From positions 1 to 46,853 of IMG/VR virus record IMGVR_UViG_3300017783_000046: 46,853 nt of DNA; one strand, 5' to 3'. The translations under genes and the position numbers were made by a program. How positions within the stretch are numbered: position 1 is the stretch's first letter; each line of letters begins with the position of its first letter. This document shows positions 26,166 through 33,104 of this stretch, in pieces. Source of the DNA: a virus. The notes below the pieces were generated by a model. That model saw only the letters and a program-made list of their open reading frames with translations. It searched no databases and was not told the origin of the DNA.

Positions 26166-26416
26166 TGATAAAGATTACACCTCAGACATACATCGATATG
26201 AATAAGGAGTTTGAAGAGGAAGATATTCCCTTCCGAGTCAGTATTCCTACACAGGAACAGATTGATGAGCATCGCTCACAACCAGCACTACCTTATCACG
26301 CACCACCAGCAATAGATATGGTTGCTGAGATGTGGAAGAAGCATCGGGCAAAAGAGCAAGAAGAGAGTATAAGACAATTAGAGAATGAGGCATCTGATTA
26401 TGGCATAGGCAAATGA
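26165..26416 (+). CDS. Hypothetical charged protein
   Basis: The 83-residue product is rich in Glu, Lys and Pro. It has a helical N terminus (YIDMNKEFEEEDIPFRV) and a C-terminal helix (MVAEMWKKHRAKEQEESIRQ). It is coupled upstream by TAATG and downstream to the HNH gene by ATGA. The function is unknown. Confidence 0.6.
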   Translation: MIKITPQTYIDMNKEFEEEDIPFRVSIPTQEQIDEHRSQPALPYHAPPAIDMVAEMWKKHRAKEQEESIRQLENEASDYGIGK

Positions 26417-27423
26417 GTATGGATACAAAAGTCTGTAAAAAATGTGGTGTTGAAAAACTAGTCTCTAATTTTGGTAAGGGGGGTAAGCAGCAGAGAGCAA
26501 ATGGGGAATGGAAGCAGTATTATCACAGCACTTGTAAGCAGTGTGTAAATACACCGAGAGTTCGCAAGGATAATCTAGATCCAAAAGTTTGTAATATTTG
26601 TTGTATTTCAAAATCTTTATCTGAGTATGCTTATGAACCCAGTCGTGATAGGTATCGTGGCGATTGTAAGAAATGTAAGTATCAGCAACGAATGAAGAGT
26701 CGTGCAAAAAATCCAGAGATTGTTGCAAGAGAGAGGGAACGTAATCGCTGGCGATATAATAATGTAGAGGGTGTTGCTGAACGTGCTAAAGAAGTTTCTG
26801 ATAAATCTCGCGCAAAACACAAAGATCGTAGGAATGAGGAACAACGTGATCGTTATGCAAATGATCCAGAATATGCTGAGCGTCATCGTCAAAATCAAAG
26901 AGCTCTTTGGTCAAATAATCCAGAGTATCGCGAGAAGGCAAAGAAACAGAATAAAATTTACAGAGAAGAAAATAAAGAAGAACTTCGTATCAAACAAAAA
27001 CAATATCAGTTAGAAAATAAAGAACGGATTTCAGAAAGAAATAAAAAACATAGAAAAGAAAATCCTGAGCATCATAAAAAACTCAGAAAGATACAGTATG
27101 AAAAACATCAAGAGAAACTTGTTGAAGATCAAAAGAGAATCCGAAAAGAACGCAGGCAATATCTAAGAGAATATCTTGGTGGTAAATGTGTTAGGTGTGG
27201 TGCAACTGAGAGATTAGAATTTGATCATATTATTCCTGCAGATAAGTCCTATACCATAGGATCTAACATTACGTGTTTTTCTTTAGAAGAACTCATTTTG
27301 GAAGTAGATAAGTGTCAACTTCTTTGTCGTCCATGTCACATTCAAAAAGGTATAGAGAATGGTGATTATGTCGGATCAAAAGGACTGCCTGAAGAGGTGA
27401 AGAAGAGGAGAATTAGAAAATGA
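26413..27423 (+). CDS. HNH endonuclease with two N-terminal zinc ribbons
   Basis: The 336-residue product is a probable free-standing homing endonuclease. The N terminus holds two zinc ribbons: CKKCG with CKQC at residues 8-44 and CNIC with CKKC at about 60-88. A long, basic, Glu/Lys/Arg-rich helical linker follows (about 95-250). The C-terminal HNH domain starts with CVRCG near residue 259, then LEFDHIIPADKSYTIGS and finishes CQLLCRPCHIQKG. The linker is noticeably more A+T-rich than flanking genes, which suggests acquisition. It overlaps both neighbours. Confidence 0.88.
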   Translation: MSMDTKVCKKCGVEKLVSNFGKGGKQQRANGEWKQYYHSTCKQCVNTPRVRKDNLDPKVCNICCISKSLSEYAYEPSRDRYRGDCKKCKYQQRMKSRAKNPEIVARERERNRWRYNNVEGVAERAKEVSDKSRAKHKDRRNEEQRDRYANDPEYAERHRQNQRALWSNNPEYREKAKKQNKIYREENKEELRIKQKQYQLENKERISERNKKHRKENPEHHKKLRKIQYEKHQEKLVEDQKRIRKERRQYLREYLGGKCVRCGATERLEFDHIIPADKSYTIGSNITCFSLEELILEVDKCQLLCRPCHIQKGIENGDYVGSKGLPEEVKKRRIRK

Positions 27424-27521
27424 GTCAGGCATTGGTGGTATTTGGATTGCTACTACCACTAGCATTAGTAGCAATTATACTAAAACTGAACTCATGGGTA
27501 TCCAAAGTCAATAATGAATGA
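27420..27521 (+). CDS. Tiny membrane protein, 33 residues
   Basis: MSQALVVFGLLLPLALVAII is a single transmembrane helix followed by a short polar tail. It starts in an ATGA overlap with the HNH gene. AAGAGGAG lies about seven bases upstream of the ATG. It may be a membrane micro-protein; function is unknown. Confidence 0.5.
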   Translation: MSQALVVFGLLLPLALVAIILKLNSWVSKVNNE

Positions 27522-27547
27522 CAGATCGGGTAGTGGCACACTAGCAC

Positions 27548-27577
27548 TTGACGGGGGGTCGTCTGGTGAGTTATAGT
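27548..27577 (+). promoter_or_regulatory. Candidate promoter over the start of the VWA gene
   Basis: TTGACG (27548-27553) and TATAGT (27572-27577) are separated by 18 bases, close to the vegetative consensus. It overlaps the likely GTG start at 27566, so it would only produce a shortened protein from ATG 27608. It may be fortuitous. Confidence 0.3.
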
Positions 27578-29734
27578 AGGTATATACCGAAACGCCCTAC
27601 TGAACAGATGAGTGTCAACACTGAAGTCAAAGGCACCCTTGCAAAACTTCTTGCGACTGAGAATCTTCATGTTGAGCACCGTAAGATCTCTACGGCATAC
27701 TTCAATACGGAAACTCGTGTTCTTGCTCTCCCTATCTGGAAAGACGTTACGGGGGATGTGTATGACCTTCTAGTGGGTCATGAGGTAGGTCATGCTCTAT
27801 ATACTCCTAACCTAGATTTTGGCAATGCTCCAAAGGATTATGTGAATGTCATAGAGGATGCAAGAGTAGAGCAAAAGATGAAGCACCTTTATCCTGGTCT
27901 TCGCAAATCTTTTTACCTAGGATATCAAGAACTCAATAAAAAAGATTTCTTCAATTTGAGATCTACTTATAAGAAGTTGTCAGATTGGAAACTGATTGAT
28001 CGTATCAATATATACTTCAAAGTTGGTACTGTATGCAATGACCTGCCTTTGAATTTCAATGCTGAAGAACAAGTGTGGGTTGATCGTATTGCCAATGCAG
28101 AAACATATGAAGAAGTTCTTCAACTCGCTGAAGAACTTTATGCTTGGGTCAAGGATGATGCTGAACAGAATCCAGATGTTCCTACTCCGCCAACTAAACC
28201 AAATAACTCCACAAGTGCTGATGGTGATAGAGAATATTCTCCACAGAGTAGTGACGAAAAAGAAGATGCTGATGGCAGTGGCGATAGCAATCCTACTGGT
28301 GGAAACGATAAAGATATTGATTCAGATTTAGATGATGTTGATGACAACCTAGATCAATCTGATACAGAACGTGCATGGAATGATAACCAGTACATGCTTA
28401 TTGATGACGACGCAAAGGAGTGGATATATCTTGACCTACCAGAAGTAAATCTTGACAAGGTTGTTGTTCCTTATAAGGTGATTCAAACAAAACTTGAAAA
28501 TCACTTTATGCATGAAAATGTCGATGGCGAGGCATTCACTAGGTCTGTAGATAAGACAACTGATGTATATAAAAAGTACAAGCATGATGCACAATCATCA
28601 GTGAACTATCTGGTGAAGCAGTTTGAAATGAAAAAATCAGCAGACAAGTATTCACGTTCTTCTGAGTCTAGAACTGGTGTTATCAATACTAATGCTCTTT
28701 ACAAATATAAACTGACTGACGATATTTTCGTTCGTAGTAATGTAGTTTCAGATGGTAAGAATCATGGTCTCATGTTCTTACTTGATTGGTCTGGATCTAT
28801 GTCTAATTGCATGATGGATACGATCAAGCAACTGTATAACCTTATGTGGTTCTGTCGTAAAGTTCAGATTCCTTTTGAAGTGTATGCATTCCAATCTACA
28901 ATGTATGGAGAGTATTCACAATATGGTGATAACCATAAAGCAAAACGAAATACTTTAGGCATTTCAAAATCATTCAGGTTGCTTCAGTTGTTTACTTCTA
29001 GCATGAAGAAGAAAGAACTGGATGATCAGATGCTTTTGATTTGGATTCAGTGCTATGGTATGTGCAGCAATTACTATACTGCTCACAGTTATTGTAGGGA
29101 ATATACTTTAGGTGGAACACCTCTTGCTGAAGCAGTAATCTGCATTCGTGAATTGGTTAGTAAATTTACTAAGAACAAAAGTATTCAGAAAGTAAATGTC
29201 ATCGCTTTGACAGATGGGGAATCAAATCCCATGTTCTACAATGCAGAAAAACTTACTACTAGGTATGGTGAAGATTATTGGAACACAAGTTTGCTTTGTC
29301 ATAATTTGAATAAGGTTTTTATTCTTCGTGATCCTGTAACAGGGTATCAGCGACGGATTGAAGCAAGCCCATTTCTAACAACTAAAGAGATTGTTTCTTT
29401 CTATCGTGAGATTACTGATTACAATTGGATTGGTTTTAGATTGTGTAGCAAGCGTGAAGCAAATACCATGATCAGTTTCTATGGTAACGATTCTCAGGAA
29501 TATCACACTTCATGGTCAAAAAATAAATTTATCGAAATACATAACAAGTGTGGATTTACTGTGCAGTACCTTATGCCAAATCAAAATATTGGTTTTGGTA
29601 CTAGTGACTTGGAAGTCAAACCAAAAAAAGAAGTTGCATCTAAAGCAGAACTTACTAGGGCTTTCAAAAAGCACATGGGATCCAAGATGACAAACAAAAC
29701 TATTCTAAACAAATTTGTGGAGGTGATTGCCTAA
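27566..29734 (+). CDS. VWA-domain protein with HExxH metallopeptidase-like N terminus
   Basis: The product is about 722 residues. An N-terminal zincin-like site HEVGH (bases 27779-27793) is followed about 22 residues on by Glu in NVIEDARVEQ, the usual third ligand. An acidic Asp/Ser-rich linker (bases about 28150-28370) separates it from a C-terminal von Willebrand A domain. That domain has the MIDAS string DWSGSMS near base 28784, TPLAEA and a later LTDGES. The GTG at 27566 follows GGGGGG by seven bases and keeps the conserved SYSRYIPKRP opening; TTG 27548 and ATG 27608 are alternatives. VWA proteins usually partner MoxR-type ATPases, and one is encoded next door. CobT-like labels exist for such proteins, but cobalt chelation is unlikely here. 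Confidence 0.8.
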   Translation: MSYSRYIPKRPTEQMSVNTEVKGTLAKLLATENLHVEHRKISTAYFNTETRVLALPIWKDVTGDVYDLLVGHEVGHALYTPNLDFGNAPKDYVNVIEDARVEQKMKHLYPGLRKSFYLGYQELNKKDFFNLRSTYKKLSDWKLIDRINIYFKVGTVCNDLPLNFNAEEQVWVDRIANAETYEEVLQLAEELYAWVKDDAEQNPDVPTPPTKPNNSTSADGDREYSPQSSDEKEDADGSGDSNPTGGNDKDIDSDLDDVDDNLDQSDTERAWNDNQYMLIDDDAKEWIYLDLPEVNLDKVVVPYKVIQTKLENHFMHENVDGEAFTRSVDKTTDVYKKYKHDAQSSVNYLVKQFEMKKSADKYSRSSESRTGVINTNALYKYKLTDDIFVRSNVVSDGKNHGLMFLLDWSGSMSNCMMDTIKQLYNLMWFCRKVQIPFEVYAFQSTMYGEYSQYGDNHKAKRNTLGISKSFRLLQLFTSSMKKKELDDQMLLIWIQCYGMCSNYYTAHSYCREYTLGGTPLAEAVICIRELVSKFTKNKSIQKVNVIALTDGESNPMFYNAEKLTTRYGEDYWNTSLLCHNLNKVFILRDPVTGYQRRIEASPFLTTKEIVSFYREITDYNWIGFRLCSKREANTMISFYGNDSQEYHTSWSKNKFIEIHNKCGFTVQYLMPNQNIGFGTSDLEVKPKKEVASKAELTRAFKKHMGSKMTNKTILNKFVEVIA

Positions 29735-29977
29735 ATGAGTACAGTAGCAACGATTTATTCTAATGGGAGTCAAGAGTGTGAGCGGATGGCAGCACTCCTG
29801 GAAGCACTTGATGGAGACTTTCATAAGTACGAACTAGGAATTCATTTTAGTGACAAACAGTTTCATAATGAATTTGGTGAGGAAGCAGAGTATCCTCAGT
29901 GTTCTATTGGTATGAAGCATGTAGGTAACATGCATGACACACTTCATTATATGAAGGACCATAAGATGTTCAGTTGA
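29735..29977 (+). CDS. Glutaredoxin-like protein with altered active site
   Basis: The 80-residue product has the thioredoxin-fold layout. A first strand ATIYSNGSQEC leads into a helix with LLEALD. A later YPQCSIG matches the cis-proline turn of glutaredoxins. The usual CxxC is reduced to SxxC (Ser12, Cys15), so normal dithiol chemistry is unlikely. It follows the VWA gene with no gap and precedes the AAA+ gene by a promoter-bearing spacer. Its role may be binding or redox sensing, which is inference. Confidence 0.65.
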   Translation: MSTVATIYSNGSQECERMAALLEALDGDFHKYELGIHFSDKQFHNEFGEEAEYPQCSIGMKHVGNMHDTLHYMKDHKMFS

Positions 29978-29994
29978 TGGACTGGCACAGGGTC

Positions 29995-30023
29995 TTGCAC
30001 CGCCCTTGATTCTATGCTATACT
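29995..30023 (+). promoter_or_regulatory. Promoter before the AAA+ ATPase gene
   Basis: An extended -10 TGCTATACT ends at 30023, with a weak -35-like TTGCAC 17 bases upstream of TATACT. It lies 23 bases before the ATG at 30047. The -10 region is identical over eleven bases with the promoter at 23904. Confidence 0.6.
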
Positions 30024-30046
30024 AACCATATCAACACAAGAGACCA

Positions 30047-31105
30047 ATGGCAGTCCCTCAAGCAATCACTACTAAACAATTAGTCGAGTACCTTCAAGAG
30101 ACTGTAGGTTCAGAATTTACTAGCAAGGATCTAGCAAGTGCTTCTGCTCACTTTGGAGTCGGTCTCCAAACAATCGCCAAACGTGTATTGCAGTTCAAGA
30201 CTGCACCAGGAAAATATAGTGTGGTTCCTCAAACCAATGTTCAAAAGCAACCTGACATCTTGATTCCAAATAAGAATGATTCCTATGTCCCTTTTGGTTC
30301 TTTCCAAGATATCAAAAAAGTTATTCGCAGCGGTGAATTTTATCCTGTCTTCATCAGTGGTTTTTCTGGCAATGGAAAAACTTATTCCGTGGAACAATCT
30401 TGTGCTCAACTTGGGCGTGAGTTGATTCGTGTAAACATTACTATTGAAACTGATGAAGACGATCTACTTGGCGGTTTCCGTCTGGTTGATGGTAATACTG
30501 TGTGGCATAATGGTCCTGTCATTGAGGCTCTTGAGCGAGGTGCTGTCCTCCTTCTGGATGAGATCGATTTGGCATCCAACAAAATCCTTTGCCTTCAATC
30601 GATCCTTGAGGGTAGTGGAGTCTTCCTCAAGAAAATTGGTAAATATGTAAACCCTGCCGAAGGATTCAATGTTGTTGCAACTGCAAATACTAAGGGTAAA
30701 GGCAGCGATGACGGTCGCTTTATTGGAACCAATATTCTCAACGAAGCATTCCTCGAACGTTTCCCAATTACATTCGAGCAAGATTATCCAACTGCGACGG
30801 TAGAAACTAAGATCCTGTTGAATGTCGGTTGCGATCCTGAGTTTGCAGAAAATCTAATCAAGTGGGCAGGAGTCATTCGTAAGACATTCTTTGATGGAGG
30901 AGTCGATGAAGTTATCACTACTCGTCGTCTAGTACACATCGTAGAAGCATATAAGATCTTTGATGATCGTGTAAAGGCAATCACACTATGTGTCAATCGT
31001 TTCGATGATGACACTAAACAATCTTTCCTGGATCTCTATACAAAGGTTGACGCTGGTCTCGAAGAAGAGTATACTGGGGAAAATAATAATCTATTGAATG
31101 ACTAA
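30047..31105 (+). CDS. cobS: MoxR/CobS-type AAA+ ATPase
   Basis: This AAA+ ATPase is labelled CobS (cobaltochelatase subunit) in many cyanophages. The 352-residue product has an N-terminal helical region, Walker A GFSGNGKT at 105-112 and Walker B VLLLDEID at 167-174. The MoxR-type insert ESILEGSG-like region follows, then sensor 1 VVATANTKGKG near 219. No other cobalamin genes are present. Together with the adjacent VWA protein, a MoxR-VWA remodelling pair is a more economical reading. It is coupled downstream by TAATG to the clamp operon. Confidence 0.88.
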   Translation: MAVPQAITTKQLVEYLQETVGSEFTSKDLASASAHFGVGLQTIAKRVLQFKTAPGKYSVVPQTNVQKQPDILIPNKNDSYVPFGSFQDIKKVIRSGEFYPVFISGFSGNGKTYSVEQSCAQLGRELIRVNITIETDEDDLLGGFRLVDGNTVWHNGPVIEALERGAVLLLDEIDLASNKILCLQSILEGSGVFLKKIGKYVNPAEGFNVVATANTKGKGSDDGRFIGTNILNEAFLERFPITFEQDYPTATVETKILLNVGCDPEFAENLIKWAGVIRKTFFDGGVDEVITTRRLVHIVEAYKIFDDRVKAITLCVNRFDDDTKQSFLDLYTKVDAGLEEEYTGENNNLLND

Positions 31106-31395: not shown

Positions 31396-32045
31396 CCGTT
31401 ATTTCAACACGTACCCGTGACATTCTCAGGAACTTTGCGGCGATCAACAATTCCATTGTAATCAAACCTGGAAAGCAGATTCGTACTCTGAGTATCAACA
31501 AAAACATTCTTGCATCTGCAGAAGTTCTTGAGGAGTTTGATAAGCAGATCTCTATCTATGATTTGTCTTCTTTCATCAGTGGCGTTGATCTGTTCCCTTC
31601 AACAGAACTGCAACCAGAGTCTACATATGTTCGCCTAGTTGACACTCAGGATGAGCGTCGTCAGTCTCGGTTCTACTATGCAGATCCTGAGATTATTGTT
31701 CAACCTCCTGAGAATGATATCACTCTCCCTAGTGTTGATGTAGAATTCAATATCTCAGTGCGAGACTATATCAATGTGATGAAGGCAGCACGTTTGTATA
31801 AGGTTCCTGATGCATGTGTCTTTGGTTCTAACGGTAAGGTCAACTTTTGTGTGACTGATAAGAAGAATGAAACTTCTAACAGTTACACTGTTGAAGTTGG
31901 AGAAACTGATCACGACTTCTGCCATTGCTTCAAGATTGAGAATCTCAATATTATTGAGTCTGATTACAACATTCAGATTAGCAACAGTAAAGTTGCTAAG
32001 TTCACCACTAAAGGACTCTGCTATTGGATTGCACTTGAACCATGA
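31392..32045 (+). CDS. gp45: Sliding clamp gp45
   Basis: gp45 is the trimeric clamp for DNA polymerase gp43 and the mobile activator of late transcription. The 217-residue length is close to T4 (228). The phrases TRDILRNFAAINNSIVIKPG at the start, EFDKQISIYDLSSFIS near 48 and the C-terminal strand KFTTKGLCYWIALEP identify it. It overlaps both neighbours by ATGA. Confidence 0.95.
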   Translation: MTVISTRTRDILRNFAAINNSIVIKPGKQIRTLSINKNILASAEVLEEFDKQISIYDLSSFISGVDLFPSTELQPESTYVRLVDTQDERRQSRFYYADPEIIVQPPENDITLPSVDVEFNISVRDYINVMKAARLYKVPDACVFGSNGKVNFCVTDKKNETSNSYTVEVGETDHDFCHCFKIENLNIIESDYNIQISNSKVAKFTTKGLCYWIALEP

Positions 32046-32587
32046 GTTATGCTATTTCTGGATACGACTTTCTCCCCTCTCTACTAGATGAACGTGAAGT
32101 CTCGTATCTAGGGGCAACACTCAGTAGCGAATTTGAAAGTAGAACCGCTGCTTGGGATGAAGGTAGAGGAATGACAAAGATGATATACAAACCGCCTTGT
32201 GCAGAAGAGTATTATCATCGAGTTCAATACTTTTTGAACAGTTATCTACGAACTGATTTATTGGAAACCTATTGGTTTTGCACTAGGTATTACAACAAAT
32301 CATTTATGGCAGCACATACAGATCGCAATGCCTGTGAAGTCTCTGTCAGTTTGAACATCATCCAAGATCAACCTTGGGAGTTGCAACTACTAGACCGATT
32401 CGGTGCAAAGCAAAAATTTGAAACCTTGCCTGGTGATGCAGTATTATACAGTGGTATAGATCTAGAACACTGGCGGACTCCATACCAAGGAGAACAGTAC
32501 ACACAACTATTTTTTCATTATGTTAGATCGACTGGACCTTACAACCGAGAGCAGGGGGATGAAGGCCCTGCCGATTACGGAGTTTGA
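32042..32587 (+). CDS. 2OG-Fe(II) oxygenase, copy 2
   Basis: The 181-residue product shows the double-stranded beta-helix iron site: His92 and Asp94 in AHTDRN and His143 in LEHWRTPY, preceded by LPGDAVLYSG. It differs clearly in sequence from the other two oxygenases of the window, so it is not a recent duplicate. The 2-oxoglutarate-binding basic residue is not obvious in the usual place. It lies between gp45 and a cysteine-rich protein. The substrate is unknown. Confidence 0.75.
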   Translation: MSYAISGYDFLPSLLDEREVSYLGATLSSEFESRTAAWDEGRGMTKMIYKPPCAEEYYHRVQYFLNSYLRTDLLETYWFCTRYYNKSFMAAHTDRNACEVSVSLNIIQDQPWELQLLDRFGAKQKFETLPGDAVLYSGIDLEHWRTPYQGEQYTQLFFHYVRSTGPYNREQGDEGPADYGV

Positions 32588-33104
32588 TTACACTAAACGT
32601 GAGTGTGGTACTTGTAGTGAGTGCTGCCAAGGACATCTGTATGGCGATGCTCATGGCATTCCATTCTTTCCTGGTCAACCATGTCACTATTGGGATCCTA
32701 GCAATAGTTGCGGTGGGTGCAGCATTCACAAAGATCGTCCTCCAATCTGTTCCGATTTTGAATGCTTGTGGAAACAAACTAAGCAGATGCCTCAGTGGAT
32801 GCGACCAGATCGTACCAAGGTTCTGATGTATCAACGGGCATATCAGGATGTTGAAGGTGACTACTTGGAACCTGGTGAGGTAATCAACTGGATCTCTGCT
32901 GTCGAGTGCAATCAAAAGATGGACTCTGCTATGCTGTCTTGGTTGATTCAGCAAGCACGCAACAACGAATGGAACTTGCATTATCAGATCAATAAAGTTG
33001 ATCACTATCTTGGATCTGAAGTCTTTCATAATTTCGTAAATGAAAGTGCTAACGGTGTGAGTCAACAACTTGTATACAATGAGAATGGTCAATTAGTAAA
33101 ATGA
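32559..33104 (+). CDS. YkgJ-like cysteine-cluster protein
   Basis: The 181-residue product carries the YkgJ-type metal or iron-sulfur binding pattern: CGTCSECCQGHL near residue 17, CHYW near 39, then CGGCSIH and RPPICSDFECLW to about residue 70. Members are annotated as zinc- or iron-chelating, and function is mostly unknown. The C-terminal half is helical. ATG 32559 gives a compact start next to AGGGGG, while ATG 32520 in the same frame would overlap the oxygenase more. The neighbour is an iron-dependent oxygenase, which hints at shared metal chemistry. Confidence 0.72.
   Translation: MKALPITEFDYTKRECGTCSECCQGHLYGDAHGIPFFPGQPCHYWDPSNSCGGCSIHKDRPPICSDFECLWKQTKQMPQWMRPDRTKVLMYQRAYQDVEGDYLEPGEVINWISAVECNQKMDSAMLSWLIQQARNNEWNLHYQINKVDHYLGSEVFHNFVNESANGVSQQLVYNENGQLVK

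Follow-up and report, generated by a model that had tools for sequence, protein, structure and literature searches.

In ocean surveys cobS, which is counted as a core cyanophage gene, is widely interpreted as an auxiliary metabolic gene for vitamin B12. The locus analysed here raises the question of whether this ATPase gene and its large neighbour serve cobalt chelation or form a remodelling machine of another kind. The window, the whole 46.9-kb virus record that we analysed, derives from a T4-like cyanophage, with S-SSM2, S-RIM14 and S-ShM2 as its best-matching isolates (91–94% protein identity). The region under study (27420–31105) comprises the end of an HNH gene, a 33-aa open reading frame (ORF), one large and one small ORF, and the ATPase gene, for which the PHROG label is ‘porphyrin biosynthesis’, that is, cobS (Table 1). 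A PADLOC search for defence systems returned no match.

Table 1. Features of the zincin-VWA/ATPase locus in window coordinates; residues are numbered from TTG 27548.
Feature	Coordinates	Strand	Basis
Zincin-VWA protein (phrog_459 ‘peptidase’; CobT-like), 708 aa	27608–29734	+	phrog_459, E=3e-282; start as in S-RIM14
N-terminal zincin-like domain	27608–28186	+	AlphaFold2 model, Foldseek, invariance in 109/109 and 70/70
HEVGH, residues 78–82	27779–27793	+	
Candidate third zinc ligand, Glu103 in NVIEDARVE	within zincin-like N-domain	+	
VWA domain plus C-terminal tail	28559–29731	+	MIDAS columns invariant or nearly so; best Foldseek match NorD VWA
MIDAS: DWSGS, T524 of GGTP, D556 of TDG	DWSGS from 28784	+	
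Glutaredoxin-like protein, SQEC instead of CPYC; non-conserved neighbour	29735–29977	+	phrog_22, E=2e-13
MoxR/CobS-type AAA+ ATPase, 352 aa	30047–31105	+	phrog_249, E=1e-137; AAA_5, E=3e-16; own clade
33-aa putative membrane ORF; non-conserved neighbour	27420–27521	+	no relative beside the large gene in fetched loci

The two core genes sit as the first-pass annotation had described them, but the 722-residue product that it gave for the larger one is better replaced by the 708-aa product of ATG 27608, which is annotated likewise in the 91%-identical S-RIM14. The in-frame codons upstream, TTG 27548 and GTG 27566, overlap a promoter-like sequence (TTGACG-18-TATAGT, 27548–27577), a kind of site whose frequency in the region does not exceed that in shuffled sequences. 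ATG 27608 is very probably the true start, with the two upstream codons less likely.

The same annotation had joined the glutaredoxin-like and membrane ORFs to the pair in a four-part cassette, which comparison with other loci did not bear out. The SxxC glutaredoxin-like ORF is real, as its phrog_22 match shows, but relatives of it lie near the large gene in only 6 of about 180 viral loci, window included, and in the other five they are upstream of it. Of the proposed co-conservation of three genes, what stands is the ATPase/VWA pair, conserved in T4-like cyanophages and their relatives. The glutaredoxin CxxC/CxxS active site is absent (SQEC in the window, SMEC or NMES in relatives); the first active-site cysteine is replaced in all relatives found, leaving a degenerate but retained protein. 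The 33-aa membrane ORF had no detectable relative beside the large gene in any fetched locus. At the matching place S-RIM14 has only a short gap, lacking both this ORF and the HNH endonuclease gene, so that the segment carrying them here (26413–27521, between an 83-aa ORF and the large gene) looks like a recent insertion. We therefore rejected both small ORFs as conserved parts of a cassette, given their rarity near the large gene and the gap in S-RIM14.

Two further genes of the window deserve mention. The product of 32042–32587 is labelled ‘ferrochelatase’ in PHROG, yet shows the HxD...H pattern typical of 2-oxoglutarate/Fe(II) oxygenases, and the label is probably wrong. That of 32520–33104 has a YkgJ-type CxxCxxxCC cluster with a zinc- or iron-binding look and belongs to phrog_9155, a family of unknown function.

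The ATPase has intact Walker A (GFSGNGKT) and Walker B (LLLDEID) motifs, sensor 1 (ATANT) and an ERF arginine finger, all at alignment positions that vary little or not at all among diverse phages; its N-terminal extension of about 80 residues matched no Pfam model. Against the CobS profile TIGR01650 it scored 64.7 bits, with a cutoff of 558.55, and the match began at profile position 67, the N-terminal part of the profile being unmatched. In a tree of AAA proteins, the phage family formed one clade (support 99/99) apart from the chelatase CobS clade (100/99) and was not nested within CobS. As a CbbQ_C search for outgroup ATPases gave two loci only, outgroups are few in the tree and several of its branches are long, and only the split between these two well-supported clades is used here. 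Earlier doubt about the cobS label is supported. Distant CobS-like ATPases also occur in Staphylococcus phage JD007 and Microbacterium phage Pumpernickel (L222 5707–6825 and L221 5755–6837, respectively), where the large neighbours that we checked are not zincin-VWA proteins.

We then examined conservation of the large protein. In 109 homologues, HExxH, Glu103-Asp104, Arg106 and the MIDAS residues Asp413, Ser415, Ser417 and Asp556 were invariant, and the longer motifs HEVGH, NVIEDARVE and DWSGS...GGTP...TDG were invariant or nearly so; these sequences had been retrieved partly by their HExxH and ED motifs, so that the invariance is partly built in. For this reason, retrieval was repeated with a seed from the VWA domain only, outside the N-domain. 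Among the 80 loci obtained, which as top-scoring matches are biased towards close relatives, HExxH and ED.R were retained in 70 of 70 full-length homologues. The motif is therefore not a chance occurrence, and loss of HExxH from most homologues, which would have counted against the first-pass interpretation, was not seen. More distant phages also keep it, as HESAH in Ochrobactrum phage OC, HECYH in ICP2, HEAGH in a Zobellviridae phage and HETLH in a Microcystis phage. On plasmids, where the site was inspected in three proteins only, it reads HEAAH in an IncC plasmid and HEVAH in an Enterobacter plasmid.

The two genes travel together. Using tblastn, we found the large protein in 463 phage records and a full-length ATPase in 453, with genus counts that agree between both genes (365 Synechococcus, 61 Cyanophage and 24 Prochlorococcus). 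The genes adjoin in S-PM2, P-HM1, S-CRM01, Ochrobactrum phage OC, Stenotrophomonas phage DLP6 and pelagiphage HTVC008M. In 68 of the 80 VWA-seeded loci a same-strand ATPase gene lies downstream, and the remaining 12 loci end within 1.5 kb. Gene order varies: the ATPase gene is upstream in two loci (L100 and L101) and on the opposite strand in a third (L096). The initial description of a MoxR-VWA pair is accordingly upheld, with an AAA_5/MoxR-type ATPase carrying intact Walker A and B motifs beside a VWA protein with an intact MIDAS and an invariant zincin-type site.

We used AlphaFold2 to predict the structure of the zincin-VWA protein from 59 phage-type sequences (pLDDT 81). A Foldseek search with the whole model returned the VWA domain of NorD, from the NorQD complex, first, and the MIDAS domain of MDN1 (midasin) was among the significant matches. 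Among solved structures NorQ/NorD thus has the VWA fold nearest to that of the phage protein, and its AAA+/VWA complex is solved as well; a zincin domain, by contrast, is not known in NorD. As this search showed the VWA domain only, the N-domain had to be folded separately. Modelled alone (27620–28186), it reached a pLDDT of 92, with HExxH (54–58, model numbering) in a helix spanning 45–61 and E79 in a helix spanning 72–90, which is the gluzincin arrangement. Its 13 best PDB matches, among which several entries are the same proteins, were all zincins (probability up to 1.00, best E=0.04) and included selecase, jannalysin, abylysin, ArdC and IrrE/PprI. The predicted N-domain is alike to these minigluzincins, ArdC and IrrE/PprI in fold and in the arrangement of HExxH and Glu, although they stand alone or have other partners and the likeness is structural only. 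The model thus suggests a minigluzincin/ArdC/IrrE-like zincin fold, with marginal E-values that make the Foldseek evidence by itself less than strong.

These marginal E-values would also fit a different role for the domain, as an adaptor module that binds metal without cutting protein, within an ordinary MoxR-VWA chaperone. The MoxR-VWA partners NorD and CobT work without an active peptidase, which lends such a role some plausibility. However, the glutamate of HExxH, whose role in zincins is catalysis rather than zinc binding, is invariant, and we consider a non-proteolytic adaptor very improbable.

The large protein matched no Pfam family at all, and among TIGRFAM models it matched only TIGR02442 (E=0.08) and not TIGR01651, the CobT equivalog. 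A search of solved structures with its sequence gave nothing useful, the CobT match lying mainly in the low-complexity linker. A scan of bacterial genomes revealed HExxH-bearing relatives in Pseudovibrio, Methylobacter, Turicimonas, a planctomycete and others; of six that were scanned, five exceeded the Pfam CobT (PF06213) cutoff and the sixth matched CobT_C. Profile comparison with hhalign aligned the phage proteins with this zincin-bearing CobT-like bacterial family (99.8%, E=1.6e-28, 478 columns). Once proteins from plasmids and from other phages had been added, the family in turn aligned with alphaproteobacterial CobT (100%, E=8e-39, 555 columns). A direct step from the phage proteins to cobaltochelatase CobT was rejected, as it gave a 66% match to the VWA domain only and no significant N-domain match; the intermediate family is needed.

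By profile homology through this intermediate family, the large protein is homologous to CobT and falls within a zincin-bearing CobT-like branch of phages and plasmids. It shares with CobS/CobT (TIGR01650, TIGR01651, PF06213/PF11775) the AAA+ partner and the order of N-domain, acidic linker and VWA domain. In a joint alignment, however, chelatase CobTs have SMALR or SYALR where the others have HExxH; the motif is absent at that site from all 25 cobaltochelatase CobTs (0/25), which mostly read [SA]xAL[RK], whereas HEVGH is invariant in the phage protein. By parsimony, CobT may have lost HExxH. The contrast drawn earlier, a remodelling pair rather than a cobaltochelatase, is therefore correct as to the intact zinc site but a false choice as to ancestry, the large protein being a CobT relative both in the hhalign chain and in Liu et al. 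2021 (PMC8651126). The peptidase label, in turn, is more than an error: mobile-element members of the branch keep the zinc site intact and under constraint, whereas the chelatase lacks it. The CobT of Pseudomonas phage nickie (L219 3439–5523) is viral, yet lacks HExxH as chelatase CobT does.

Liu et al. 2021 (PMC8651126) regard the cyanophage peptidase as a misannotated CobT and propose that viral CobST hijacks host CobN. On this proposal, the viral proteins would dock on CobN and replace or boost ChlI/ChlD during cobalt insertion, so that more cobalamin is available to nucleotide synthesis, with HExxH a relic or a structural feature. A host partner is available: in 81 genomes of the picocyanobacterial family, a CobN-family match was found in 79 (69 above the family cutoff) and the CobT N-domain in none (0/81), which accords with the literature, where cobS and cobT are stated to be missing from cyanobacteria. 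Most of these genomes have a second, weaker CobN-family match, presumably the related Mg-chelatase large subunit. The window has no CobN, and the first-pass annotation noted the lack of any chelatase partner, but that absence carries little weight: CobN, the large subunit, would be supplied by the host, and genes of the CobN family are present in picocyanobacteria. The CobT homology through the intermediate family is also as the proposal would have it. Several observations oppose it. HExxH is absent from real CobTs, and a relic would not be expected to remain unchanged in so many lineages whose proteins are 25–55% identical. The phage ATPase lies outside the CobS clade and is far below the CobS cutoff (65 versus 559 bits). 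Similar pairs occur in a pelagiphage and on plasmids of E. coli, Klebsiella and Salmonella. Aerobic corrin synthesis is not expected in these three enterobacteria. Finally, a 2026 survey reported a cobS gene in a virus whose assigned host, SAR86A, has no known cobalamin synthesis genes. As the host does have CobN, a B12 role keeps some probability, although we regard it as unlikely: a zinc site that is characteristic of the mobile-element branch, and that the chelatase lacks, speaks for remodelling or proteolysis.

In unrelated carriers, gene neighbourhoods of the pair involve replication and recombination. In the window and in cyanophages, gp46/47 and gp45/gp44 are near; elsewhere the pair is near ligase and dnaE (nickie), primase and polymerase (ICP2 and a Zobellviridae phage), or RecT and a YqaJ exonuclease (Pseudovibrio), and Ochrobactrum phage OC shows a replication/recombination context likewise. 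T4-like phages have large replication modules with conserved gene order, so this context is suggestive only. A tblastn search with the Pseudovibrio protein recovered 1,333 plasmids, 1,178 of them conjugative, and the same kind of pair is carried by the enterobacterial plasmids noted above. The IncC and RecT-YqaJ elements share with the phages the zincin site (HEAAH...EDCRIE), the VWA MIDAS, a CobS-like AAA protein and ssb/bet/exo linkage; they differ in that their VWA protein is only about 16% identical to the phage protein, a DUF3150 gene is added and the ATPase gene is several genes off. On one IncC plasmid (L231 2792–10785) the order is AAA, hypothetical, ssb, bet, exo, DUF3150 and zincin-VWA, with the AAA and VWA genes bracketing the recombination genes. 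In the four loci checked, a DUF3150 gene also lies between the ATPase and bacterial zincin-VWA genes (L113 4650–5762, L115 2764–4074, L117 4589–5734 and L123 1836–3140). DUF3150 is a possible third partner, one not seen in the phage loci examined. Two SXT papers do not name CobS/CobT-like genes.

A MoxR ATPase and a vWA protein with an N-terminal metallopeptidase were described in group 2.2 jumbo phages by Iyer et al. 2021 (PMC7824862), who proposed a role in virion assembly by analogy with Acidianus two-tailed virus. As described, that architecture is the same as the one found here, although the paper ties it to jumbo phages and virion assembly and mentions neither CobS nor CobT. By extension, the cyanophage pair might be a chaperone-protease that builds tail or capsid parts, the peptidase trimming structural proteins. 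Relatives of the same architecture nevertheless occur on conjugative plasmids, which make no virion, and the phage pairs are located within replication/recombination modules rather than with the structural genes; we regard an assembly role as quite improbable.

We consider it probable that the pair is an ATP-driven MoxR AAA+/VWA remodelling machine with a zincin domain, a relative of CobT by ancestry and not a cobaltochelatase subunit. Beside what the computations show, namely the domains with their intact motifs, the association of the two genes, their neighbourhoods and their separation from chelatase CobS and CobT, we infer an ATPase-VWA complex, zinc binding, proteolysis and a target. A ring of the ‘CobS’ ATPase would act through the VWA adaptor, which would grip an acidic residue of the substrate through the MIDAS metal, and ATP turnover would remodel the captured substrate. 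The minigluzincin-like N-domain would most likely bind zinc and cleave a peptide bond, either of the captured substrate or of the adaptor. The target may, on a reading that we hold tentatively, be a protein complex tied to phage DNA replication or recombination. We weighed against the zincin-armed machine the Foldseek E-values of the N-domain, the nickie CobT without HExxH, CobT homology that runs through an intermediate only, a gene context that is suggestive only and the presence of host CobN.

Both pieces of this account are already published separately (Liu et al. 2021, PMC8651126; Iyer et al. 2021, PMC7824862); what is new is the zinc-site link between them. In its widest form, which is speculative and which we think has less in its favour than against it, the machine would be a widespread ATP-dependent zincin protease-remodeller of phages and conjugative plasmids for replication/recombination complexes, from which CobT derived by loss of the zinc site, and cyanophage cobS would be no B12 gene. 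If the zincin-armed remodeller is real, the B12 readings of cobS would be wrong, and a similar machine would travel on IncC and other conjugative plasmids beside recombination genes.
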